A stretch of DNA of 51,637 nt from Dialister histaminiformans (lineage in GTDB: Bacteria > Bacillota > Negativicutes > Veillonellales > Dialisteraceae), in assembly GCF_900103425.1 (NCBI RefSeq), contig NZ_FMXA01000011.1, positions 22,137-73,773 on the forward strand, in the 5' to 3' direction. Made by a program: the position numbers and the translations under genes. The notes beneath the pieces were generated by a model that worked only from the letters and a program-made list of their open reading frames with translations, searched no databases and was not told the origin of the DNA. Below, piece by piece: positions 874 through 48,635 of this stretch. Numbering within the stretch: position 1 is the first letter of the stretch; every line of letters starts with the position of its first letter.

Positions 874-3356
874 CTCAGGAACAGATTCAGCATCTGGTTC
901 TTCAGCAGATGCCGGAACATCTGCCGGGCGGTATCCTGATTTATCGTGATAACAAACGGGAAGAGATTCTTTATGCCAACTCCTGGCTTATTTCCATGAT
1001 GGGGTGTTCCTCTTTTATGGATTTCATGGAGCTGACGGGAGGGACTTTTGCAAACCTGGTTCATCCAGATGACCGGGAAGGGGTAGAGCGGGATATCCGC
1101 GAGCAGATTGCCGGCAGCCGAAGCAAACTGGATTTCGTAAATTATCGGATAATCCGAAAGGATGGCTCTATCCGCAGGGTAGAGGAGTTCGGACACAGAG
1201 TATTCATCCCCGGGGTGGGTACCGTTTTTTATGTATTTTTTCTGGATAATGACACCAAATATAAGGTCTATGATATGGACTCCCTTACCGGACTTCCAGG
1301 GAAAACACGGTTTCTGAAGCATGCCTCTGTAGTTATGAAATTAGCTTCTCTGGATTCCAAGGCGCCGAAAATGGCATTGGTGTATGTGGATATCCGTAAT
1401 TTTCATCTGTATAATATGCGTAATGGCAGCGAAAAAGGGAATCAATTCCTCATCCGAATGGCAAAAGTACTAAAGGGAAACTTTCCAAATAAGCTGATTT
1501 CCCGTTTTGAGGATGACCATTTCGTAATACTGACCAGCCTGCCGTCCCTGAAAAAACAGATTCCGGTAATTACCGGGCAGATTCATGGATTATATGATGC
1601 CAGCCATCTGGATGTGAAATTTGGCATTTGCCCAGTGGATGATTATACAATGCCGCTAGAGGTGGGCTGCAGCAGGGCCCGGATGGCCTGTGACACCATT
1701 AAGGAATTTCCGGACAAACATGTGTGCTTTTATACTCAATCTATGGGTGATGCCAGGAATCTTCGGAATTATATAATTGACCATTTCCGGGAGGCTATGG
1801 AAAAACATTGGATTCAGGTATATTTCCAACCGGTAATCCGCACTGTATCTGGAACCCTGGCAAGCATGGAAGCCCTGTCCCGCTGGATGGATCCTCAAAA
1901 AGGGAAAATTAATCCCGGTGTGTTTGTCCCTTTATTGGAAGACAGCCGTCAGGTTCGGAAGTTGGACATGTATGTACTGGAGGAAATCTGCCGTCTGTAC
2001 CAGAGTCAAAAAGAACAGGGGAAAACCCTGATTCCGGTCTCGTTTAATTTATCGAGAGGAGATTTTTTCCAGGAGTCAGTTTTTGACGAAGTGGAAGAAA
2101 TACGGAAGCGGTATCAGGTGCCCAGGAATATGCTGTATGTGGAAATCACCGAAAGCTTATTAGTCTATGAAGGGGATATACTTTATCAGGAAATAGAGCG
2201 GTTTCGGCAAGCCGGATACGAAGTGTGGATGGATGACTTTGGCAGTGGCTATTCATCCCTGAATACACTGAAAAACTACAGTTTTGATGAAATCAAGATT
2301 GATATGGCCTTTTTGGCCCATTTTACGGATAAATCGCAGAACATAATCCAGGCTATAATCCGGATGGCTAAAAAGATCGGAATGCATACGCTGATGGAAG
2401 GCGTAGAGACCAGTGAACAGGTGGAATTTGCCAAATCTATTGGATGTGAACAGCTCCAGGGCTATTATTATGGTAGACCTATGCCTTTTGAAGAACTGAA
2501 ACGAGTATGTCAGGATAAGCACTGGCAGGTGGAAACGCCACAGCTGCGCAAGTATTATGGATCCCTGGGAGCTATCGATTTTCTCATAGACAAGCCGATG
2601 GCGGTGGTAGAAGTAACCAACCATCGTATACGATATCTTTTTGTCAATGAAGAATACAGAAAGACACTTCAATCCATTGGAATAATGAGTCTGGAAAAAA
2701 ACGAAGAGTTTGTTAATGACCAGGCCGGCCCGACCAGCAAAAATATGCAGAGGATGCTGGCAGATGTTATAAACAGCCATACCGAAGAAGCGCTGACATA
2801 TACGTTAAATGGCCGATATGTGAAACTGGAGGCCAACTACCTGGCCTCTCATGGTCAACATCACCTGGTTCAACTCTACCTGACCAACATCACCATGCAG
2901 ACCGAGAGAAAATTCAGTGAGAATCTGGACCAGGTTACCCGGAACCTGTTATCCCTCTACCAGATGGTTTTCCTTGTAGATATGGAAAAAGATACAGCGG
3001 TTCCGCTGATAATAAATACTCCTTTCCAGGAACATTTTTATCAGAAGCGTGTGGGAATTCAGGCCATGGTTAAGCAGTATGCAGAAACCATGATTCATCC
3101 TGAAGATAGAGAACGTTTCCTGGCTTTCAATGAATCGGAATCCATGATGAACCGGATTCGTCAGAACCCAGAAGGAACGATTTCCGGTGTCTTCCGGACC
3201 CTGGGAAATGATGAGAAGTGTCACTGGGATATTCATTCCATTTTCCCGACCATGTTGAATGGAAAGATTTATCTCCTCTATACCACCCGAATTTCACCAC
3301 TTGAAAACGAGTTAAACATAGCCTGCACTTCCAGTAGGGAAGAAAAGGAAACATAG
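870..3356 (+). CDS. PAS-GGDEF-EAL cyclic-di-GMP phosphodiesterase with degenerate GGDEF
   Basis: An 828-residue cytosolic protein. Domains in order: PAS (about 15-128, with LVHPDDREGV and YRIIRKDGSIR), GGDEF (about 135-300), EAL (about 310-555) and a C-terminal PAS-like region (about 570-815). The diguanylate cyclase signature is EDDHF at residues 214-218 instead of GGDEF, so cyclase activity is unlikely. The EAL domain keeps MEALSRW (E334-A335-L336), EITES, DDFGSGYSSL, KID and EGVET, all expected of an active c-di-GMP phosphodiesterase. It overlaps the upstream PAS gene by 4 bases and is followed by a terminator. The GGDEF remnant may act as a GTP-binding regulatory module, as known for some hybrid proteins. 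No membrane segments are seen. Confidence 0.93.
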   Translation: MTQEQIQHLVLQQMPEHLPGGILIYRDNKREEILYANSWLISMMGCSSFMDFMELTGGTFANLVHPDDREGVERDIREQIAGSRSKLDFVNYRIIRKDGSIRRVEEFGHRVFIPGVGTVFYVFFLDNDTKYKVYDMDSLTGLPGKTRFLKHASVVMKLASLDSKAPKMALVYVDIRNFHLYNMRNGSEKGNQFLIRMAKVLKGNFPNKLISRFEDDHFVILTSLPSLKKQIPVITGQIHGLYDASHLDVKFGICPVDDYTMPLEVGCSRARMACDTIKEFPDKHVCFYTQSMGDARNLRNYIIDHFREAMEKHWIQVYFQPVIRTVSGTLASMEALSRWMDPQKGKINPGVFVPLLEDSRQVRKLDMYVLEEICRLYQSQKEQGKTLIPVSFNLSRGDFFQESVFDEVEEIRKRYQVPRNMLYVEITESLLVYEGDILYQEIERFRQAGYEVWMDDFGSGYSSLNTLKNYSFDEIKIDMAFLAHFTDKSQNIIQAIIRMAKKIGMHTLMEGVETSEQVEFAKSIGCEQLQGYYYGRPMPFEELKRVCQDKHWQVETPQLRKYYGSLGAIDFLIDKPMAVVEVTNHRIRYLFVNEEYRKTLQSIGIMSLEKNEEFVNDQAGPTSKNMQRMLADVINSHTEEALTYTLNGRYVKLEANYLASHGQHHLVQLYLTNITMQTERKFSENLDQVTRNLLSLYQMVFLVDMEKDTAVPLIINTPFQEHFYQKRVGIQAMVKQYAETMIHPEDRERFLAFNESESMMNRIRQNPEGTISGVFRTLGNDEKCHWDIHSIFPTMLNGKIYLLYTTRISPLENELNIACTSSREEKET

Positions 3357-3401
3357 GGCTAACGAATGCTGGCGAAAAAATAATAAAAATGCCATGCAAT
3401 A

Positions 3402-3462
3402 AAAAGAATCGGACAAGGGAAAGAAACTATCAATGGTTTCAATCCCGGTCCGATTCTTTTTT
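3402..3462 (+). terminator. Rho-independent terminator after the EAL gene
   Basis: The 13-bp arm AAAAGAATCGGAC (3402-3414) pairs perfectly with GTCCGATTCTTTT (3448-3460) and runs into T residues. It closes the PAS/EAL operon and, being A-rich on the left, could also work on the minus strand. Confidence 0.9.
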
Positions 3463-3845
3463 GCTTTAAGCCGTACCCCTTACCATTTCCGGGGGATTGT
3501 AAGGGGGAACGGAATATTCTCTTGTGAAAGGTAAGAATGCGAAAGCCAAGAGCAGGAAAGAAGGCAGTATGTATGCAGAGAAAGTCTTCTCTTCATTGCC
3601 CATAATTCACAATAATCAGAAATTCGCAAGTATTCCGCAAGTATTCCTATGTATGATGGGCTGGTCTGCGGTCAGGCGGACCATTTGTGCAATAGATGGT
3701 GGGGGAGAGTGTCGTATGTGACTCTGAAGCAATAATAATGATATTATGTTGCTCCTTGCTGAGACTGGGGAGCGCATAGTCCCGGCATTCCCTCCATAGC
3801 TCGAACCTGTTTTTCTATCTCACCGTTTGGCACCTCCATAATACC
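3463..3845. repeat. Degenerate copy of the dispersed repeat in a gene-free spacer
   Basis: This 380-base spacer holds a worn copy of the element seen at both window ends. GGTAAGAATGCGAAAGC near 3530 resembles the GTAAGAATAAGAAAGC part, and GTATGTGACTC...ATATTATGTTGCTCC (3714-3756) resembles the TATGTGAATC...GGTAATATGTTGCTC core. A 65-codon open frame across it has no protein-like character and is not called. Confidence 0.5.
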
Positions 3846-4394
3846 TTAGTCATCGTCGTAGTCATCATAGTCATCATAGTCGTCATAATCGTTGTCATAA
3901 TCATCGTAGTCATCGTCATCATAGGCAGAAGCATTTCCATCTTCAAACCCCTGCTCATATCCAAATTGTCTGGCTTCCTCTATATCCCGTTCTGCACTAT
4001 CTGTGCCATCTGCAAAACCGTTGTCATATCCCCATATATAACTATAGCCGTCATAGCTGTCATAGTCGTCATATTCATAGTCCTGTGTGGTATTATGTTC
4101 ATTTTCATCGTCCGTGTCACATCCTACGTGACCATGATAGCGGTGGCTTGGATGGACCGAATGAATCCGTATGAGTGGTTGTTTGTCAGAAACAGAGAAC
4201 AAAGGCTCAGGTGGAGAACTGTGATTTGAAATTTCCTTAGCAGTTGTACTTACCGGGAACTGGCTGCCTGGTGTGGGCGGTGGAAACCATAGAGAGTGTT
4301 TTCCTTTTCTTACGGAAGGGATGCTCTCAAGTTTATCCCAGATAACGATAATGACAAGTAACCCCAAAAAAGGGACCAACATAATAAATGACAT
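3846..4394 (-). CDS. Membrane-anchored Asp/Tyr-rich hypothetical protein
   Basis: A 182-residue protein of unknown function. Residues 3-19 (FIMLVPFLGLLVIIVIW) form one hydrophobic segment. A polar Pro/Ser/His-rich linker (about 30-90) follows, and then an extremely acidic tail with repeated DDY and DYDD units ending in DDD. A middle section has GYDNGFADG and FGYEQGFEDG, an apparent internal duplication. The start is supported by AGGAG about 11 bases upstream on the minus strand (near 4406-4410). The codon repeat behind the tail is a run of catcatagt-like units (3848-3925), which could expand or contract. The tail might bind cations or a basic partner; this is speculation. Confidence 0.6.
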   Translation of the reverse strand: MSFIMLVPFLGLLVIIVIWDKLESIPSVRKGKHSLWFPPPTPGSQFPVSTTAKEISNHSSPPEPLFSVSDKQPLIRIHSVHPSHRYHGHVGCDTDDENEHNTTQDYEYDDYDSYDGYSYIWGYDNGFADGTDSAERDIEEARQFGYEQGFEDGNASAYDDDDYDDYDNDYDDYDDYDDYDDD

Positions 4395-30955: not shown

Positions 30956-30980
30956 GTTTCTGAGAAAAGGGTTGGTCTGT

Positions 30981-32288
30981 ATGAGAAAATATATATTAAT
31001 TCCATTTTTGGAGTTATGTCTTCTTCCTGGAATCGCGAGAGCAGCTGATGCAGGAAGTGAACTTAATGGAGCAGATATCACCTTTATGGCCATATCCACG
31101 CTTCTGGTTTTGATTATGACTCCGGCACTGGCCTTTTTCTATGGAGGCCTCGTCCGCCGCAAAAATACAATTAACACCATTATGATGTCCATGGTGTGTC
31201 TGGCAATTTTTGCTGTTCAGTGGTTCGTGTATGGCTATTCACTTTCCTTTGGTCCCGATGTAGGAGGCATAATAGGCAATCTGGACTGGTCTTTCTTCCA
31301 TGGAGTGGGAATTGCAGCTAATCCTGATTATTCGTCCACTATTCCACAGATTCTGTTCGCACTGTTTCAGATGGCCTTTGCCATACTTACACCGGCTATT
31401 GTCAGTGGGGGCATTGTAGAAAGAACACGATTCCCGGCGTATTGCCTGTTCATCCTGCTCTGGGGCACTTTGGTTTATGATCCCATGTGCCATATGGTAT
31501 GGGCGGTAGGTGGCTTTATCAGGAATGTGGGAGCTTTAGATTTTGCCGGTGGTACGGTTATTCATGTGACTTCCGGGTTTTCAGCCCTTACAGCAGCCAT
31601 TCTGATTGGAAAGAGGAAGGGGTATGGTACACTGTCCCTTCGTCCTCACAATATTCCCTATGTTTGTCTTGGAGGCAGTCTCTTGTGGATGGGGTGGTTC
31701 GGTTTTAACGCCGGCGCAGGGCTTTCTGTTTCCGGTGTTATGACACAGGCCCTGGCCAATACAGGGATTGCATCCTGCACAGCCGGGCTGGTATGGATTA
31801 TTCTGGAAGAATTTATTCATAAAAAGATTACCGCGCTGGGGCTCATGACGGGTATTCTGGCAGGGTTGGTCGGAATCACACCTGGTGCTGGCTTTGTGGA
31901 TACGAATGCAGCTTTTGTTATTGGAGTTACTACTCCTGTAATCTGCTTCTTCTTTATTTCCTGTGTTAAGTCTTATTTTGGCTATGATGATTCGCTGGAT
32001 GCTTTTGGTTGTCATGGTATGGGCGGTGTATGGGGCGCTCTGATGACTGGGATATTCTGTACTAAAGCGGTAAATAGTGCCGGGGCAGATGGGCTTCTTT
32101 ATGGGAACCCGGCACAGATGATTCCGCAGATAACCGGTATTGTGGTTGGCATGGTTGTCGCTGTGGTTATGACCGCCGTTATTCTGAAAGTACTGGGGTG
32201 CTTTATGACCGTGCGTGCAACGCCATCGGAAGAAGCCCAGGGACTTGACCTTATTGATCACGGTGAACGAGCTTATAATAAGTTATAA
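30981..32288 (+). CDS. amtB: AmtB ammonium transporter
   Basis: A 435-residue inner-membrane channel with a cleavable signal (ILIPFLELCLLPGIARAADA) and eleven predicted helices. The conserved FYGGLVRRKN, the pore histidines in VIHVTSG and GCHGMGG, and DPMCHMVW are all present. It conducts ammonium inward and is blocked by P-II proteins in known systems; the P-II gene lies 11 bases downstream. The ATG at 30981 gives a sensible signal peptide; an earlier in-frame start would read through the hairpin at 30916-30955. Confidence 0.96.
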   Translation: MRKYILIPFLELCLLPGIARAADAGSELNGADITFMAISTLLVLIMTPALAFFYGGLVRRKNTINTIMMSMVCLAIFAVQWFVYGYSLSFGPDVGGIIGNLDWSFFHGVGIAANPDYSSTIPQILFALFQMAFAILTPAIVSGGIVERTRFPAYCLFILLWGTLVYDPMCHMVWAVGGFIRNVGALDFAGGTVIHVTSGFSALTAAILIGKRKGYGTLSLRPHNIPYVCLGGSLLWMGWFGFNAGAGLSVSGVMTQALANTGIASCTAGLVWIILEEFIHKKITALGLMTGILAGLVGITPGAGFVDTNAAFVIGVTTPVICFFFISCVKSYFGYDDSLDAFGCHGMGGVWGALMTGIFCTKAVNSAGADGLLYGNPAQMIPQITGIVVGMVVAVVMTAVILKVLGCFMTVRATPSEEAQGLDLIDHGERAYNKL

Positions 32289-32299
32289 GAGGTGCAGAT

Positions 32300-32671
32300 A
32301 TGGATACGGAAAAGAAAATTTATAAGGTAGATGCGGTTATCCGGCCGGAAAAGCTGGAGGAATTAAAGGATAGACTCTATGCTATTGGTGTTACCGGTAT
32401 AACGGTATCGGACGTATACGGTTGTGGTCTTACTCATGGGCAGGAAGAAATTTACAGAGGTAACGTACTCACAGTAAATTTGCTTCCTAAAGTCAAAGTG
32501 GAAATTGTCATATATGAGACTCCGCTCGAAAAACTTATTGATACCATTCGAGATACCTGTAATACCGGACATGTAGGCGATGGAAAGATTTTTGTTTCTG
32601 AACTGCTGACAGCCATTAAAATCCGTACAGGCGAACGGGGCGGCGATGCCATCATCGATGATAAGGCCTGA
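32300..32671 (+). CDS. glnK: P-II nitrogen regulatory protein (GlnK type)
   Basis: A 123-residue P-II protein. It has the T-loop (GLTHGQEEIYRGN), LLPKVKVEIV, the B-loop TGHVGDGKIFV, and the C-terminal IRTGERGGDAI. It senses ATP/ADP and 2-oxoglutarate and gates AmtB. The tyrosine uridylylated in E. coli (Tyr51) is replaced by leucine at position 57 here, while the preceding YRG is retained, so classical GlnD control is unlikely. AAGAGGTGC precedes the ATG. Confidence 0.95.
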   Translation: MDTEKKIYKVDAVIRPEKLEELKDRLYAIGVTGITVSDVYGCGLTHGQEEIYRGNVLTVNLLPKVKVEIVIYETPLEKLIDTIRDTCNTGHVGDGKIFVSELLTAIKIRTGERGGDAIIDDKA

Positions 32672-32825: not shown

Positions 32826-32854
32826 TTGACATAGTAAATATTGAATGCTACAAT
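32826..32854 (+). promoter_or_regulatory. Sigma-70 promoter of the T-box operon
   Basis: TTGACA (32826-32831), a 17-base spacer and TACAAT (32849-32854). It lies directly before the T-box leader. Confidence 0.85.
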
Positions 32855-32869
32855 CTAAGCAATTTAAAG

Positions 32870-33145
32870 TAAAACAACCGTTGAGCAGGGATAGTAACCT
32901 GGCAATATTCATTACAGAAAACCGATAGATGATGAGAATTCGGTATGTATGTGCCTGGCGAATGGGCCTGTGAGGTGCAGTCTGATCCATATGGGGTAGG
33001 AACTGCCGGAGCCTTCACCGTTACAGGAAGGCACGTATCGATTGAAATATCTGTACGCTGAGCAGGGCTTAATAGCCAATATGGGTGGTACCGCGGAAAT
33101 TAACTTTCGTCCCTTTGTCATAATGACAAGGACGAAAGTTTTTTG
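32870..33145 (+). ncRNA. T-box riboswitch, probably tRNA-Trp specific
   Basis: The hallmark TGGTACCGCGG (33086-33096) is followed by a strong terminator whose arms AACTTTCGTCC (33102 on) and GGACGAAAGTT precede TTTTTG. Stem I can be folded with CAGG/CCTG at the base, GGCA/TGCC above it and ACCGA/TCGGT at the apex. This places TGG (32963-32965) at the 3' side of the specifier loop, a tryptophan codon. Uncharged tRNA would stabilise the antiterminator and allow expression of the downstream transporter. The specifier is my manual folding and needs a covariance check. Confidence 0.9.
33102..33144 (+). terminator. T-box-controlled terminator
   Basis: AACTTTCGTCC..GTCA-TAA-TGAC..GGACGAAAGTT followed by a T-run. 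It forms the OFF state of the riboswitch. Confidence 0.92.
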
Positions 33146-33175
33146 TTTTTCAGGAAGATTACTGGAGGGATGGAT

Positions 33176-34654
33176 ATGCAGAAAATAGATGATGTATCAA
33201 CGTTAGTGTTTACTAAGGCCAGAGGTGGAAAATTCAGATGGCTTACTATTTCTACACTGATGCTGGCTATTGGTATGCTTCTGCATCTGGTTTCTCCATC
33301 TGTCTTTGGATTTACACCGAACTGGATGATTGCCACATACTGTGTAGCCATCCTGCTCACTAAGCCGTCATACAGACAGTGCATAGGTATCTGTATGGTG
33401 GCGGCACTGATGGAAGTGTTTACCAGTAAGGCAGCGTTCCCTTATGGCAATTTCTTCAGTGAATTTGGCGGGGCTCTGGTTGCCGGATTTTTCGCACATT
33501 CCGTACCGCCTCTTCGTGTAGGCAGATTTTCTCTTCGCCCTATACTGACTGGATTTGTAACGACTTTGGTCAGCGGGTTTATCTTTGTAACTATTCTCAA
33601 GGTGGTCGTTGGTATTCCTATGCCGGTATATCTGTATGGTATCCTGCCGGCTGTCGCTATGGTAGCCGCTGGTAATGCGGCCATTACTCCTTTCCTTTAT
33701 TTCCCGGCAAGACATCTTTTCCAGACAATGAATGGAGAGGCTGCAGTAGATGAAGACGTAAAGGACAGCGATCACAGCCAGTTAATTTTAAAGCAGTCCA
33801 GACCAGGGGTAATCAGCATTGAACATCTTTCTTATACCTACCCCGGAATGGAAGGGGAAGCACTTCATGACATAAACCTGGCGGTAGAAAAAGGAGATTT
33901 TCTGGTAGTAACTGGTGCCAATGGGGCAGGAAAGACCTCACTTCTTATGGCTATGGCAGGAGCTGTTCCCCAGTACTATGGCGGTACCATGAAAGGGATG
34001 GTATTTACCGGAGGTAAGGCGGTAACCCAGACATCCATTTCCGATCTGGCCTCTAAGGTCGGCGTTATTCTTTCCGATTACAGTGCGCAGATTGTTACGC
34101 TCACAGTTGGGGAAGAAATGGCATTTACGTTGGAAAATCATGGATACAGTCCGGAAGAAATTAAGAAAAGAAGTAAAGAAGCGCTGGCCAAGGTAAGACT
34201 TACCGGACTGGAAAAGAGGGAAGTTTCCACTTTGTCCGGTGGACAGCGGCAGCGTCTGGTTGTGGCAGCGGTACTGGCAGAAGAACCGGAAGTGCTCATA
34301 TTTGATGAACCTACCAGTGCTATGGATCCGGAAGGGATTTCTGAATTTTATGAAATGGTAGGTCGGCTGAATCGGGAAAATGGATTGACCGTTGTGGTGG
34401 CGGAACACCATCTGGAAGCGGTTCTTCCCTATGCGAACCGGTTCGCTCTTCTGGATCGCGGACATCTGCTGTCAGAAGGTACGCCTGAACAGGTCATGAA
34501 GTTTATGATGAATCATCAGGTCTATGCCAATGCGATACCAGATATCTATAAGGCACAGCTTGTTCTGGAAGAAGAAGGCTGTCATTTTGAAAAACCATTT
34601 CTCAGTGTTTCGGATGCTCAGGCGTCCATTGCCAGAGCGGTGAAAGGAGAATAA
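33176..34654 (+). CDS. Fused ECF transporter: TrpP-like S component plus EcfA ATPase
   Basis: A 492-residue two-part protein. Residues about 20-195 form a six-helix membrane domain with LAIGMLLHLVSPSVFGFTPNW and FPYGNFFSEF, which resembles TrpP-type S components. Residues about 210-440 form an ABC ATPase with Walker A GANGAGKT (247-254), signature LSGGQ (353-357), Walker B FDEP (D377-E378) and an H-switch in AEHH. A substrate-binding subunit fused directly to the ATPase is unusual. The Trp-type T-box upstream and TrpP resemblance both suggest tryptophan uptake. GGAGG eight bases before ATG 33176 sets the start. Confidence 0.85.
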   Translation: MQKIDDVSTLVFTKARGGKFRWLTISTLMLAIGMLLHLVSPSVFGFTPNWMIATYCVAILLTKPSYRQCIGICMVAALMEVFTSKAAFPYGNFFSEFGGALVAGFFAHSVPPLRVGRFSLRPILTGFVTTLVSGFIFVTILKVVVGIPMPVYLYGILPAVAMVAAGNAAITPFLYFPARHLFQTMNGEAAVDEDVKDSDHSQLILKQSRPGVISIEHLSYTYPGMEGEALHDINLAVEKGDFLVVTGANGAGKTSLLMAMAGAVPQYYGGTMKGMVFTGGKAVTQTSISDLASKVGVILSDYSAQIVTLTVGEEMAFTLENHGYSPEEIKKRSKEALAKVRLTGLEKREVSTLSGGQRQRLVVAAVLAEEPEVLIFDEPTSAMDPEGISEFYEMVGRLNRENGLTVVVAEHHLEAVLPYANRFALLDRGHLLSEGTPEQVMKFMMNHQVYANAIPDIYKAQLVLEEEGCHFEKPFLSVSDAQASIARAVKGE

Positions 34655-34655
34655 T

Positions 34656-35468
34656 ATGCTGGAATTACAAAATGTATCTTTCCGGTACACGCCCAGGGGA
34701 AATAATATTTTATCTCATTTTTCCGCATCTTTTGGCGAAGGTGAGCTGGTTGCCGTTACCGGGCGCAATGGGAGTGGTAAAACAACCATGACAAGGATTT
34801 TGGTGGGGCTGGAAAAACCATCAGAAGGTATAGTTTCTTATGAGGGAAATGATATTTCTGCAGAAGACGCATCGGCACGCAGTCGATTCATAGGGTATGT
34901 GTTTCAGCAGCCAGATCGTCAGATGTTCATGCCGACGGTAAGGGAAGAAGTCGCATTTGGTCCACGTATGCAGGGGCTTACCGGGAAGGAACTGGACGAT
35001 GCAGTGGAAAATGCTATGCGTGCGGTGGATGTGGCCGAAGAAGCAGATCGGTATCCTCGCTCCCTGCCAAGGGGCACACAGCAGAGAGTGGCTATTGCAT
35101 CAGCTATTGCCATGAATATCCGCTATCTTATTCTGGATGAACCTACAAGCGGGCAGGATGGAAATGAAAAAAAACGTCTTATTTCGCTGATGAATGCATT
35201 GCGTAAACAGGGAATAACGGTGATTCTGGTAACTCATGATATGGATATTGTGGCATCAGACTGCAGCCGGGTTATTGTCATCGCTGATCATGAAAAGGCT
35301 TATGATGGTACACCGGAGAATCTATTTGCCTCGGAAGGAAAGGCAGAGCAGTGGGGGCTGGCCGTTCCATCGTCCGTTGCCCTTGGCAGAGCGCTGCCGG
35401 GGAGCCCGTACTGCAAAGATATGGTTTCTTTCTGTAATGCGTATATGAAATTACATGGGAGGGAGTAA
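34656..35468 (+). CDS. ecfA2: EcfA' ATPase of the ECF transporter
   Basis: A 270-residue ABC ATPase. Walker A is GRNGSGKT at 36-43, a Q-loop reads VFQQPDRQMF, and Walker B is LILDEPTSGQD. The ABC signature is LPRGTQQ (137-143) instead of LSGGQ, a clear departure, so one of the two nucleotide sites in the A-A' pair may be catalytically weak. The start is two bases after the previous stop with AAAGGAGA upstream. It pairs with the fused EcfA and with EcfT. Confidence 0.9.
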   Translation: MLELQNVSFRYTPRGNNILSHFSASFGEGELVAVTGRNGSGKTTMTRILVGLEKPSEGIVSYEGNDISAEDASARSRFIGYVFQQPDRQMFMPTVREEVAFGPRMQGLTGKELDDAVENAMRAVDVAEEADRYPRSLPRGTQQRVAIASAIAMNIRYLILDEPTSGQDGNEKKRLISLMNALRKQGITVILVTHDMDIVASDCSRVIVIADHEKAYDGTPENLFASEGKAEQWGLAVPSSVALGRALPGSPYCKDMVSFCNAYMKLHGRE

Positions 35469-35471
35469 ATT

Positions 35472-36155
35472 ATGGAAAAATTAGTACCGCTTACAAAAAT
35501 TATTCTTACACTGGCCACTGCGGTATGGTCCCTCACGCTTCAGACTCCTTCCGGACTGGCTGTACTGTGTGTGTTTGAACTGCTTATTCTGCTTCTGGCC
35601 AGACGTTTATTCAATAGCCTGAAAGCTGTTTTCCTGCTTGTGGTTTTTGCAGTTATGCTGGGACTTATTGAATATGCTGGTGGTGGAACACCGGTAGAAT
35701 GTTATGTTTCCGCATTCCGTATGCTGGCGCTTACTATCATTTTTATTTACCTCCTTGGTACGGTACGCCTTCAGGATCTTACGGCAACCATGGTGCAGCA
35801 ACTGAAAGTTCCTTATGAGTATGCATTCATGTTTACTGCCGGGCTCCGTTTCATTCCTGATTTTCTGGAAGAAAATCGCATGGTAACGGAAGCCCAGGCC
35901 TGTCGAGGAATGGCCGTGAAGGGCTCCTTTATTAAAAAGTGTAAGAGATATATGAATATTGTACGTCCACTTATGCTCCGTTCTCTGGAACGAAGTGAAA
36001 CCATGGCACTTTCTCTTGAACTTCGTGGATTTGGTGGGAAGGGGAGAACCTTTGTGGACAGTGTGGCTCTGCATGGGGCGGATTATCTGGTGGTAATTCT
36101 GACATGCGTTGCAACGATTATGGTATTTTATGCAAGAATGAAATATGGAGCTTGA
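35472..36155 (+). CDS. ecfT: EcfT transmembrane coupling protein
   Basis: A 227-residue integral membrane protein with five or six hydrophobic segments. The two conserved coupling helices carry ACRGM (in EAQACRGMAVKG) and ELRGFG, the Ala/Leu-Arg-Gly motifs that dock on the two ATPases. GGGAGGGAG lies before the ATG, and only three bases separate it from ecfA2. It completes a self-contained ECF transporter operon that ends at the terminator near 36.2 kb. Confidence 0.93.
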   Translation: MEKLVPLTKIILTLATAVWSLTLQTPSGLAVLCVFELLILLLARRLFNSLKAVFLLVVFAVMLGLIEYAGGGTPVECYVSAFRMLALTIIFIYLLGTVRLQDLTATMVQQLKVPYEYAFMFTAGLRFIPDFLEENRMVTEAQACRGMAVKGSFIKKCKRYMNIVRPLMLRSLERSETMALSLELRGFGGKGRTFVDSVALHGADYLVVILTCVATIMVFYARMKYGA

Positions 36156-36519: not shown

Positions 36520-38232
36520 ATGTTCAAGAATATAACAAAAATGAAGACACCGCATACTTATGCAATTATTTTCGGTGTCGTAATTTTTGCGTGGATTCTG
36601 ACATTTCTGATTCCGGCTGGGCGTTTCAGCACTCATGATATTACTTATAAAGATAACAACGGAACAGAAAAGACACGTACTGTACTTCAGCAGGATTCAT
36701 TCCGTTACTACTACCATTACAATATGGGGGCTGTGCAGAAAGATCTGACTGCTATTGCCAACAATCCGGAAAAGCTGGATGAAATGGGTATTGATAAGGG
36801 TGACCTGGATGATCTCCTTAAGACCAACAGCGCAGAATGGACCGATGAAGATCTGTCTGATGCAGGCATTACCGATGCTGCCCTTTACAAGGAATTTGGT
36901 ATGGGCATCTATGACCAGTCTGCACCGCTGCACAAGACCGCCAGAATCTGGGGTACAGAAGATACCGGCGGATTTGGTGTTCTGAATTATGTATTTGAAG
37001 GGTTGGTAACCGGTGACAGAACAGGTACTGCAGTTGGTATCGTAGCATTGATTCTGGTTGTCGGTGGTTCTTTTGGTATTATCATGAGAACCGGTGCAGT
37101 AGATGCAGGCATCTATGCTTTCATCAACACATCCAAGGGCCTGGAACGTGCGGCTCTTCCACTTCTCTTCTTTGTATTCTCTCTTGGCGGAGCTACCTTC
37201 GGCATGGCGGAAGAATGTATTCCGTTTGCCATGGTTATGGTTCCGTTTGTAATTGCGCTTGGGTATGACTCCATTGTTGCAGTTACTGTAACTTTTGTAG
37301 CTTCTCAGGTTGGTAATGCGGTATCCTGGATGAGCCCGTTCTCCGTAGCTATTGCTCAGGGTATTGCAGGCATTCCGGTTCTGTCCGGCACCAGCTTCCG
37401 TCTTCCTATGTGGTTCATCGTTACCGCACTGTCTGCGGCATACATGATGATTTATGCAGAAAAGATAAGAAAGCATCCGGAATCTTCTGTTGTATATGAA
37501 AGCGATAAGTTCTTCCGCGACAGAATGAATGAAACCACAGAAGAAGAAAAGGAATTTAAGCTTGGACATAAGCTCATTCTTGTGGAAATGCTTGCTGTTC
37601 TGGTATGGATTGTCTGGGGCGTAACTCAGGAAGGTTATTACATCCCAGAAATTGCATCTCAGTTCTTCGTTATGGGCTTTGTAGCTGGTGTTACAGCCAT
37701 CATCTTCAAGCTGAATGGCATGACCATTAATGAAATGGCTGCTTCTTTCCAGTCTGGTGTTAAGGATCTGGCAGGTACTGCAGTGGTAGTAGGTATGGCT
37801 AAGGGCATTCTGCTGGTTCTGGGTGGCAGCGATGCAACCGAACCATCGGCTTTGAACACCATTCTTCACTATATCGGAGAATCTGTTCATGGCATTCCGG
37901 CGTTCTTTGGCGCAGAAATCATGTACCTGTTCCAGAGCTGCTTCAATCTGGCAGTTACCTCTAACTCTGGTCAGGCAGCCCTGACAATGCCGATTATGGC
38001 TCCGCTGTCTGATGTACTTGGCATTCATCGTCAGATTGCTGTCCTGGCATATCAGATGGGTGCAGGCTTCGTAGACGCATTTACTCCGGTATCTGCGGCT
38101 CTGATCGGTGTACTGGGTGTAGCTCATATTGATTGGGCAACCTGGGCGAAGTTCCAGATTAAGATGCAGGGATTCTTCTTCCTTATGGGTACAATTATCC
38201 TGTTTATTGCCTGCATGATTGGTTTGCAGTAA
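36520..38232 (+). CDS. YfcC-family membrane carrier
   Basis: A 570-residue protein. It starts MKTPHTYAIIF..WILTFLIPAGRFS, the hallmark of the YfcC/DcuC-like family, and contains FSLGGATFGMAEECIPFAMVMVP and SNSGQAALTMPIMAPLSD, two conserved re-entrant or core blocks. About 12 helices. Between the first helix and the core lies a polar insertion of about 110 residues (about 40-150, rich in Asp/Lys), probably extracytoplasmic. Substrates of the family are poorly defined (carboxylates or amino acids/peptides). The gene directly downstream encodes isoaspartyl dipeptidase, so uptake of isoaspartyl or acidic peptides is a reasonable guess. Confidence 0.85.
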   Translation: MFKNITKMKTPHTYAIIFGVVIFAWILTFLIPAGRFSTHDITYKDNNGTEKTRTVLQQDSFRYYYHYNMGAVQKDLTAIANNPEKLDEMGIDKGDLDDLLKTNSAEWTDEDLSDAGITDAALYKEFGMGIYDQSAPLHKTARIWGTEDTGGFGVLNYVFEGLVTGDRTGTAVGIVALILVVGGSFGIIMRTGAVDAGIYAFINTSKGLERAALPLLFFVFSLGGATFGMAEECIPFAMVMVPFVIALGYDSIVAVTVTFVASQVGNAVSWMSPFSVAIAQGIAGIPVLSGTSFRLPMWFIVTALSAAYMMIYAEKIRKHPESSVVYESDKFFRDRMNETTEEEKEFKLGHKLILVEMLAVLVWIVWGVTQEGYYIPEIASQFFVMGFVAGVTAIIFKLNGMTINEMAASFQSGVKDLAGTAVVVGMAKGILLVLGGSDATEPSALNTILHYIGESVHGIPAFFGAEIMYLFQSCFNLAVTSNSGQAALTMPIMAPLSDVLGIHRQIAVLAYQMGAGFVDAFTPVSAALIGVLGVAHIDWATWAKFQIKMQGFFFLMGTIILFIACMIGLQ

Positions 38233-38279
38233 CTGGCAGAAAGCCTTATACCACAGGTGACAGGCTTTGTGTTTCTTGA

Positions 38280-38316
38280 GGTGTATGGCGTGACGATATG
38301 CCATACACCTTTTTTG
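38280..38316 (+). terminator. Terminator after the YfcC gene
   Basis: GGTGTATGGC pairs with GCCATACACC followed by TTTTTTG, only about 25 bases before iadA; some readthrough into iadA is likely. Confidence 0.85.
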
Positions 38317-38341
38317 TTACATTTCATCTATGGAGGAAATA

Positions 38342-39535
38342 ATGGTTATTCTCATTAAAAATGCAGAAGTTTATGCTCCGGAGAAACTGGGGCGTAAGGA
38401 TGTTCTTGTTCTGGATCAGCATATTGCCGCTATCGGAGATAATCTGAAGGTCGATTTTGGCGGTGCAGTTCCGGTCACTGAAGTAGATGGAACCGATATG
38501 GTTCTGACGCCAGGCTTTATTGACAGCCATGTGCATGTACTGGGCGGTGGCGGAGAAGGCGGTTTTGCTACCCGTACCCCGGAAGCTGTGCTTACTGACT
38601 TTACTACCTGCGGGATTACTACCGTATGCGGACTGATCGGCACTGACGGCGTGACCCGTGATATGCGGTCACTTGTAGCCAAAGTGCATGGCCTGGATGA
38701 AGAAGGTATCAGCACCTACTGCTATACCGGAAACTATAAGATTCCGATTAACACACTTACAGGCGATGTAATGACCGATATCATGATGATTGATAAGTGT
38801 ATCGGTGTTGGGGAAGTGGCATTGTCTGACCACAGATCTTCTCAGCCTACACAGGCAGAATTTGAACGTATTGTTGCCGATGCCCGTGTGGCAGGTATGC
38901 TTTCCGGAAAGGCCGGAATAGTGGACATCCATCTGGGCGACAGCACACGGTATCTGGATATGATTCTTGCACTGGTTCATAATACGGAAATTCCATATAC
39001 CCAGATTCTTCCGACACATATCAACAGAAATGCAGAACTGTTTGATGCCGGCCTCGATTATGTAAAGGAGGGCGGATATATTGACTTCACCGGTAATGCA
39101 GACATCGATTACTGGGAAACCGTATGCAGTGAAGTCAGAGTTTGCAAGGGATTCCGTCGTTATTATGACCTTGGACTGGATCCGGATCACTTTACCATGT
39201 CTTCCGATGGCCAGGGGTCTATGCCAGTATTTGATGCCAATGGCGTATATAAGGGAATCGGTGTAGCAAATTCTGCATGTCTGCTCAAGGAAATCAAAGA
39301 ATCTGTAGACAGAGAAGCTCTGCCGCTGGATTTTGTTCTCCGTTGTGTTACCTCTAATCCGGCTAAACTGCTCAAACTCCACAACAAGGGACATATCCAG
39401 ACTGGCTATGATGCAGATATCCTGTTGCTGAATAAGAAGGATCTGAGCGTTAATACCGTAATTGCCAAAGGCCAGATTATGGTCAGTGAAGGTAAACCGG
39501 TTAAATTCGGTACATTTGAACATATCAGAAAATAA
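38342..39535 (+). CDS. iadA: Isoaspartyl dipeptidase (beta-aspartyl peptidase)
   Basis: A 397-residue amidohydrolase. GFIDSHVHVLGGGGEGG carries the metal ligands H63 and H65. GVGEVALSDHRSSQPT, VDIHLGD, LPTHINRN and MSSDGQGSMPVFD match IadA. It hydrolyses beta-aspartyl dipeptides released from damaged proteins. The bridging residue in GVGEVALSD is Glu, not the carbamylated Lys of the E. coli enzyme, a known alternative in related proteins. GGAGG seven bases before ATG 38342 fixes the start; an ATG at 38330 overlaps that ribosome site. Confidence 0.94.
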   Translation: MVILIKNAEVYAPEKLGRKDVLVLDQHIAAIGDNLKVDFGGAVPVTEVDGTDMVLTPGFIDSHVHVLGGGGEGGFATRTPEAVLTDFTTCGITTVCGLIGTDGVTRDMRSLVAKVHGLDEEGISTYCYTGNYKIPINTLTGDVMTDIMMIDKCIGVGEVALSDHRSSQPTQAEFERIVADARVAGMLSGKAGIVDIHLGDSTRYLDMILALVHNTEIPYTQILPTHINRNAELFDAGLDYVKEGGYIDFTGNADIDYWETVCSEVRVCKGFRRYYDLGLDPDHFTMSSDGQGSMPVFDANGVYKGIGVANSACLLKEIKESVDREALPLDFVLRCVTSNPAKLLKLHNKGHIQTGYDADILLLNKKDLSVNTVIAKGQIMVSEGKPVKFGTFEHIRK

Positions 39536-48288: not shown

Positions 48289-48635
48289 GGGGACGTACTG
48301 GTTTCGACAGGGGTCACTGTATCATAAATAGCGAGCCGGGATTCCATCTGCCCGTAAAACGGTGGGAAAACATAAAAGCAAACAACGAATTTGCTTTAGC
48401 AGCTTAATTTAAACTGCTTGCCTCTTCGGAGTATTCCTGTGACTTCGGACAGGTATCAACTAACAGGATACCAATGAGAGACTTCCGGTATCTCGGCGGG
48501 AAACAACACCGGAATAGATAAAGGCAGTTTGTTCCTGTACGAAACTTTATCGAATTCATAAAACAGTAACTGCGCTCGGAGAAGTTTATGGGGCAGGCCT
48601 TTTGGACAGGGGTTCGACTCCCCTCGTCTCCACCA
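48289..48635 (+). ncRNA. ssrA: tmRNA
   Basis: It starts GGGGACGTACTGG and ends with the tRNA-like TTCGACTCCCCTCGTCTCC plus an encoded ACCA. The resume frame GCA..TAA at 48378-48407 encodes the tag ANNEFALAA. Both halves of the alanine tRNA-like domain pair (GGGGACG with CGTCTCC). It rescues stalled ribosomes with SmpB. A terminator follows directly. Confidence 0.98.

Follow-up and report, generated by a model that had tools for sequence, protein, structure and literature searches.

A TrpP-EcfA fusion gene in a probable T-box-controlled ECF importer operon of Dialister histaminiformans and its relatives

The T-box leader and the operon

The window, the 51,637-nucleotide stretch of the Dialister histaminiformans genome that was analysed, contains an operon on the + strand in which a T-box leader (32872 to 33117) precedes three ORFs. 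The first is a trpP-ecfA fusion gene (33176 to 34654) that encodes a protein of 492 amino acids, and this is followed by ecfA′ (34656 to 35468), encoding a second ATPase, and by ecfT (35472 to 36155), encoding the transmembrane coupling subunit. Directly 5′ of this operon, at 30975 to 32671, there are genes for an ammonium transporter and a P-II regulator. Further along the window, at 36520 to 39535, a gene for a YfcC-type antiporter and then a beta-aspartyl-peptidase (isoaspartyl dipeptidase) gene form a possible peptide-use pair, and a tmRNA gene (187 bits) is located at 48289 to 48635.

A promoter-like sequence, TTGACA-17-TACAAT with an extended -10 element, is positioned just 5′ of the leader on the + strand (32826 to 32854). 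With 11 of 12 consensus matches it is near-consensus and the best of nine sites found in a consensus scan, although the number of such sites in the scanned region is about that expected by chance. The leader itself, which comprises stems I, II and III and the antiterminator, was identified with cmscan as a full-length match to the Rfam T-box model RF00230 (model positions 1 to 219; 102.9 bits against a gathering threshold of 93; E = 1.1e-21) and was aligned with 18 relatives. In the cmscan alignment the specifier loop (32960 to 32966) reads GAA-UGG-G, with the tryptophan triplet UGG at 32963 to 32965 between GAA and a purine. The covariance-model search therefore bears out an earlier note on this DNA, which had proposed a Trp-type T-box with UGG as the specifier. 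In all of its elements, and in the UGG, the leader is like the known Trp T-box leaders, with no notable difference. Downstream, AACUUUCGUCC (33102 to 33112) and GGACGAAAGUU (33130 to 33140) constitute a perfect inverted repeat with a U run next to it, and both inspection of the sequence and a minimum-free-energy fold identify 33102 to 33149 (+ strand) as an intrinsic terminator, one that a pattern scan did not catch because its loop is longer than 8 bases. The 5′ arm of the terminator overlaps the antiterminator and includes the UCGUCC that the antiterminator uses and, as read from the sequence, the two structures, with arms that overlap within 33083 to 33149, would compete. We infer that the leader responds to uncharged tRNA-Trp. 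When tryptophan is short, the uncharged tRNA would bind to the T-box through the UGG and the antiterminator, the terminator would then not form, and the fusion gene, ecfA′ and ecfT would be transcribed.

GAAUGG is invariant in 19 aligned leaders from Veillonellales, in which the following base is A or G, and GAAUGGR is present in 71 of 71 leader rows 5′ of fused or separate trpP genes, a set in which two collections are combined and some genomes are present twice. A T-box specifier normally precedes a purine, and a glycine triplet read one base further on would usually have a C after it. A shift of the reading by one base to a glycine specifier, GGG or GGA, was considered and excluded because the UGG never varies and the base after it may be either A or G. 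There are 18 T-boxes in the D. histaminiformans genome, and a second leader, before trpE, reads UGG-A. Elsewhere in this genome (L239, on contig C6), an apparent tandem pair of T-box stem I segments is located before a branched-chain amino acid permease-like gene; two successive T-box motifs are also present at loci L001 and L005. A T-box is also listed before a putative tryptophan transport protein in C. difficile (PMC11477304).

In Dialisteraceae, Negativicoccus and several Veillonella, the T-box leader is immediately 5′ of the fusion gene. The three Megasphaera/Anaeroglobus loci tested have the gene order ecfA′-ecfT-fusion, with a T-box that reads GAAUGGA before ecfA′, and the absence of a T-box from Megasphaera is thus excluded for these three loci. 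At four loci tested, in V. parvula, V. caviae, Veillonella sp. VA139 and one Veillonellaceae MAG, the fusion is kept and no T-box was found nearby, so the link to tryptophan is not universal. At locus L182 (~3300 to 4000), which has no T-box, a short ORF with two Trp codons and then a terminator-like hairpin are present 5′ of the fusion gene, an arrangement that, read by eye, resembles a leader-peptide attenuator.

The fusion protein and its distribution

The favoured start codon of the fusion gene is the ATG at 33176, six bases downstream from a RBS, GGAGGG, at 33164 to 33169; an alternative, earlier ATG at 33170 abuts the GGAGGG. Pfam assigns the N-terminal part to TrpP (PF17099) with a modest score (37.3 bits, gathering threshold 27.2; E = 3e-9) and the region that follows, in the same frame, to ABC_tran (PF00005; 95.4 bits), consistent with the earlier description of TrpP and EcfA as a single chain, the end of which, 34654, was also correct. 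The best NCBIfam matches are to energy-coupling factor ATPase models, with scores under their equivalog cut-offs. All on the + strand, the TrpP domain, with six helices, is encoded by 33176 to 33730, a linker of ~26 residues by 33731 to 33808, and the EcfA domain, with Walker A, LSGGQ, Walker B and H-loop motifs, by 33809 to 34651. A predicted model of the whole fusion has a mean pLDDT of 86.6, and only residues 189 to 193, assigned to the linker, form a stretch below 50. The linker has a conserved S-D-H-S, which occurs in 43 distinct fusion rows and is absent from the termini of those unfused TrpP and EcfA proteins that were examined.

The best structural matches of the EcfA domain are ECF ATPases, including CbiO of CbiMQO (Z 31.5; 2.4 Å over 275 residues). 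Since matches to this domain filled the structure search made with the whole fusion, the TrpP domain was folded alone, which gave a model with six helices, a pLDDT of 86.7 and a pTM of 0.81. All 21 top structural rows for this model are S-type folds, either S components or CbiM and BtuM, with Z-scores from 15.2 to 9.2, and the first unrelated row is at 8.0. PanT is matched with Z 15.2 (3.3 Å over 172 residues) and ThiT with 12.8, and FolT, RibU and BioY are also among the matches. Foldseek alone also ranked S components first, with weak E-values, the best being 0.5, and a sequence search of the PDB with the TrpP domain found no solved relative. As modelled, the TrpP domain has an S-component fold. 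In helix 1, a possible counterpart of the small-xxx-Ala motif for docking to EcfT reads T28-xxx-A32 in Veillonellales and AxxxA in distant relatives. The ecfT product matches PF02361 (CbiQ family; 70.7 bits) and, by phmmer, a solved EcfT (E = 1.4e-6). An S-type fold for TrpP, joined to EcfA and with ecfA′ and ecfT in the same operon, agrees with the proposal that these genes encode an ECF complex.

The S component shares its operon with its own ecfA, ecfA′ and ecfT, as in ECF group I; BioMNY and YkoEDC, both of this group, likewise each have an operon that contains S, T and A genes of their own (PMC5037267, PMC10368641). In the ECF fusions described in the literature searched, two ATPase domains are joined (YkoD, PMC5037267; A1-A2, PMC6828968), whereas here the S component is joined to an ATPase, and a search of the literature, limited to open-licence papers, found no S-to-ATPase fusion. 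TrpP (YhaG) of B. subtilis belongs to the same S-component family, PF17099, and is a tryptophan importer by genetics. It is, however, a separate chain under the control of TRAP (PMC13170310), in contrast to the T-box-controlled protein fused to EcfA described here, and a B. subtilis trpP mutant was one of the S-component mutants tested in work on the shared EcfA1A2T system (PMC11487621). The locus is best explained, and we consider this likely, as a group-I-like tryptophan ECF importer that is controlled by a Trp T-box and has a covalently tethered S component.

A TrpP domain is encoded in 60 of 61 Veillonellales genomes, and the matches listed are all in ORFs of 490 to 566 amino acids, the size of the fusion. 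A frameshift or assembly artefact is excluded by this recurrence. Carriers include Dialister succinatiphilus, Veillonella parvula, Megasphaera massiliensis, Negativicoccus and Anaeroglobus. Across the class Negativicutes, TrpP is present in 172 of 380 genomes; among the matches listed from outside the order, most ORFs have ~190 to 300 amino acids, and nine are fusions of 426 to 499. These nine are among 68 distinct fused proteins from the loci fetched that align through the ATPase motifs. In eight of the nine, the linker has only 6 to 9 residues in the aligned stretch and the first strand of the ATPase is missing; in the ninth (L216), the linker is long and distinct. Such differing junctions hint at more than one fusion event. 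In trees of TrpP plus EcfA, constructed with the linker in or out, the fused proteins cluster, and the trees are compatible both with a single origin and with two or three.

After a separate trpP, ecfA always comes next, and in loci fetched far enough downstream ecfA′ is third, with ecfT behind it nearly always. Many of these unfused trpP-ecfA-ecfA′-ecfT operons carry a Trp T-box. The operons of Pelosinus, Phascolarctobacterium and Acidaminococcus, for example, have the same four parts in the same order, many with a Trp T-box, but with trpP and ecfA as separate, often overlapping genes. In most of the separate-gene loci examined, trpP and ecfA overlap by 1 to 29 bases. Given this overlap and the same gene order in unfused relatives, fusion could follow from the loss of one stop codon plus insertion of a linker.

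Asymmetry of the ATPase pair

EcfA and EcfA′, both recognised by Pfam, carry ABC motifs, with a degenerate signature in EcfA′, in which LPRGT is present in place of LSGGQ. The EcfA signature S-G-G-Q is present in 107 of 107 distinct operons. All 98 EcfA′ sequences retain the Walker A Lys, the Walker B Asp-Glu and the H-loop His, and in all 98 the first Gly of the signature is replaced. The Walker-B Glu or the H-loop His of EcfA is missing in 15 of 107, and in the first of two fusion copies at loci L101 and L102 a Gln replaces the Walker-B Glu. The shared EcfA1 and EcfA2 of D. histaminiformans both have LSGGQ. An ABC dimer pairs each subunit's Walker motifs with the signature of its partner, and all of these motif losses therefore fall within one composite site. 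Judged by these motifs, ATP is probably hydrolysed at one site, formed by the Walker motifs of EcfA′ and the LSGGQ of EcfA, the other site being degenerate. The asymmetry is the same in separate and fused operons and so is not a product of the fusion.

Role of the fusion and the substrate

Tentatively, we propose that the S component is permanently tethered and yet topples, and that the motor behind it has only one functional ATP site. The TrpP half would capture tryptophan, dock on EcfT and topple as S components do, with ATP hydrolysed by EcfA, in the same chain as TrpP, and by EcfA′. The linker of ~26 residues should give room for toppling but not for free diffusion; it would hold the S component to the motor so that the transport cycle, presumably a tethered one, would proceed in cis with no release into the membrane pool, and the single chain would set the ratio of S to A at 1:1. 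The tether would be lost if the linker were cut by a protease. For group II it is believed that ATP expels the S component and that S components are in competition for the motor, and for BioMNY of group I a power stroke without full separation has been proposed (PMC10368641). As a covalent connection of S to A that evolution has conserved, the fusion offers a natural experiment on the mechanism of ECF importers, available in many cultured species, and it provides a single-chain handle for structural studies. The asymmetric ATP sites give a second prediction, one open to point changes.

A neutral event, in which overlapping genes lost a stop codon and the mechanism was unchanged, is a reasonable alternative that we nevertheless hold to fall short of probable. 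The parts and the substrate would be the same. The few-base overlap of trpP and ecfA in most separate-gene relatives is what such an event would start from, and the linker is long and modelled with low confidence. Retention in all but one of the genomes of a diverse order, conservation of a linker S-D-H-S that the unfused partners do not have, and a different junction in the fusions of other Negativicutes argue against neutrality.

The earlier note had suggested that fusion would dedicate the ECF complex to one substrate, and the fusion might have evolved to bar other S components from the EcfA′/EcfT pair. The genome does encode other S components, PF12822 and PF07155 proteins and two BioY; RibU-like and BioY proteins among them could compete for a free module. 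This we regard as unlikely. The complete four-gene operon, with trpP and ecfA closely coupled, already exists in relatives that lack the fusion, so dedication by fusion is left without support. There is also a separate, standard EcfA1-EcfA2-EcfT module for other S components elsewhere in D. histaminiformans, on contig C21 beside an apparent truA, and the suggestion that this genome has no shared ECF module is therefore excluded. Furthermore, two different fusions flank a single ecfA′-ecfT pair in M. paucivorans and relatives. The gene order of M. paucivorans and of a Megasphaera MAG runs T-box, fusion 1, ecfA′, ecfT, fusion 2, and one ecfA′-ecfT pair is located between two TrpP-EcfA fusions at L101, L102, L158 and L160.

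The substrate of the importer is presumably tryptophan, as the earlier note had assigned it; the experimental data found for the family concern tryptophan and no other substrate. In B. subtilis, deletion of trpP results in resistance to 5-fluorotryptophan, and TrpP has been called the only characterised tryptophan importer of that species (PMC13170310). That the cargo is instead a different compound, an indole or another aromatic, from which the tryptophan pool is supplied, as could be argued from an assignment based on regulation and family and from the second, diverged fusion copy of some Megasphaera, is very improbable given the UGG leaders conserved across Negativicutes, the action of B. 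subtilis TrpP on 5-fluorotryptophan, and the retention of the transporter and T-box in genomes without trpA, such as G398. Across the Negativicutes, which are common in the mouth and gut, the T-box is evidence for tryptophan as the substrate. Of the 61 genomes of the order, 50 have trpA. As D. histaminiformans is one of these, the importer would supplement tryptophan synthesis in this species and may be the main source of tryptophan in other genomes.
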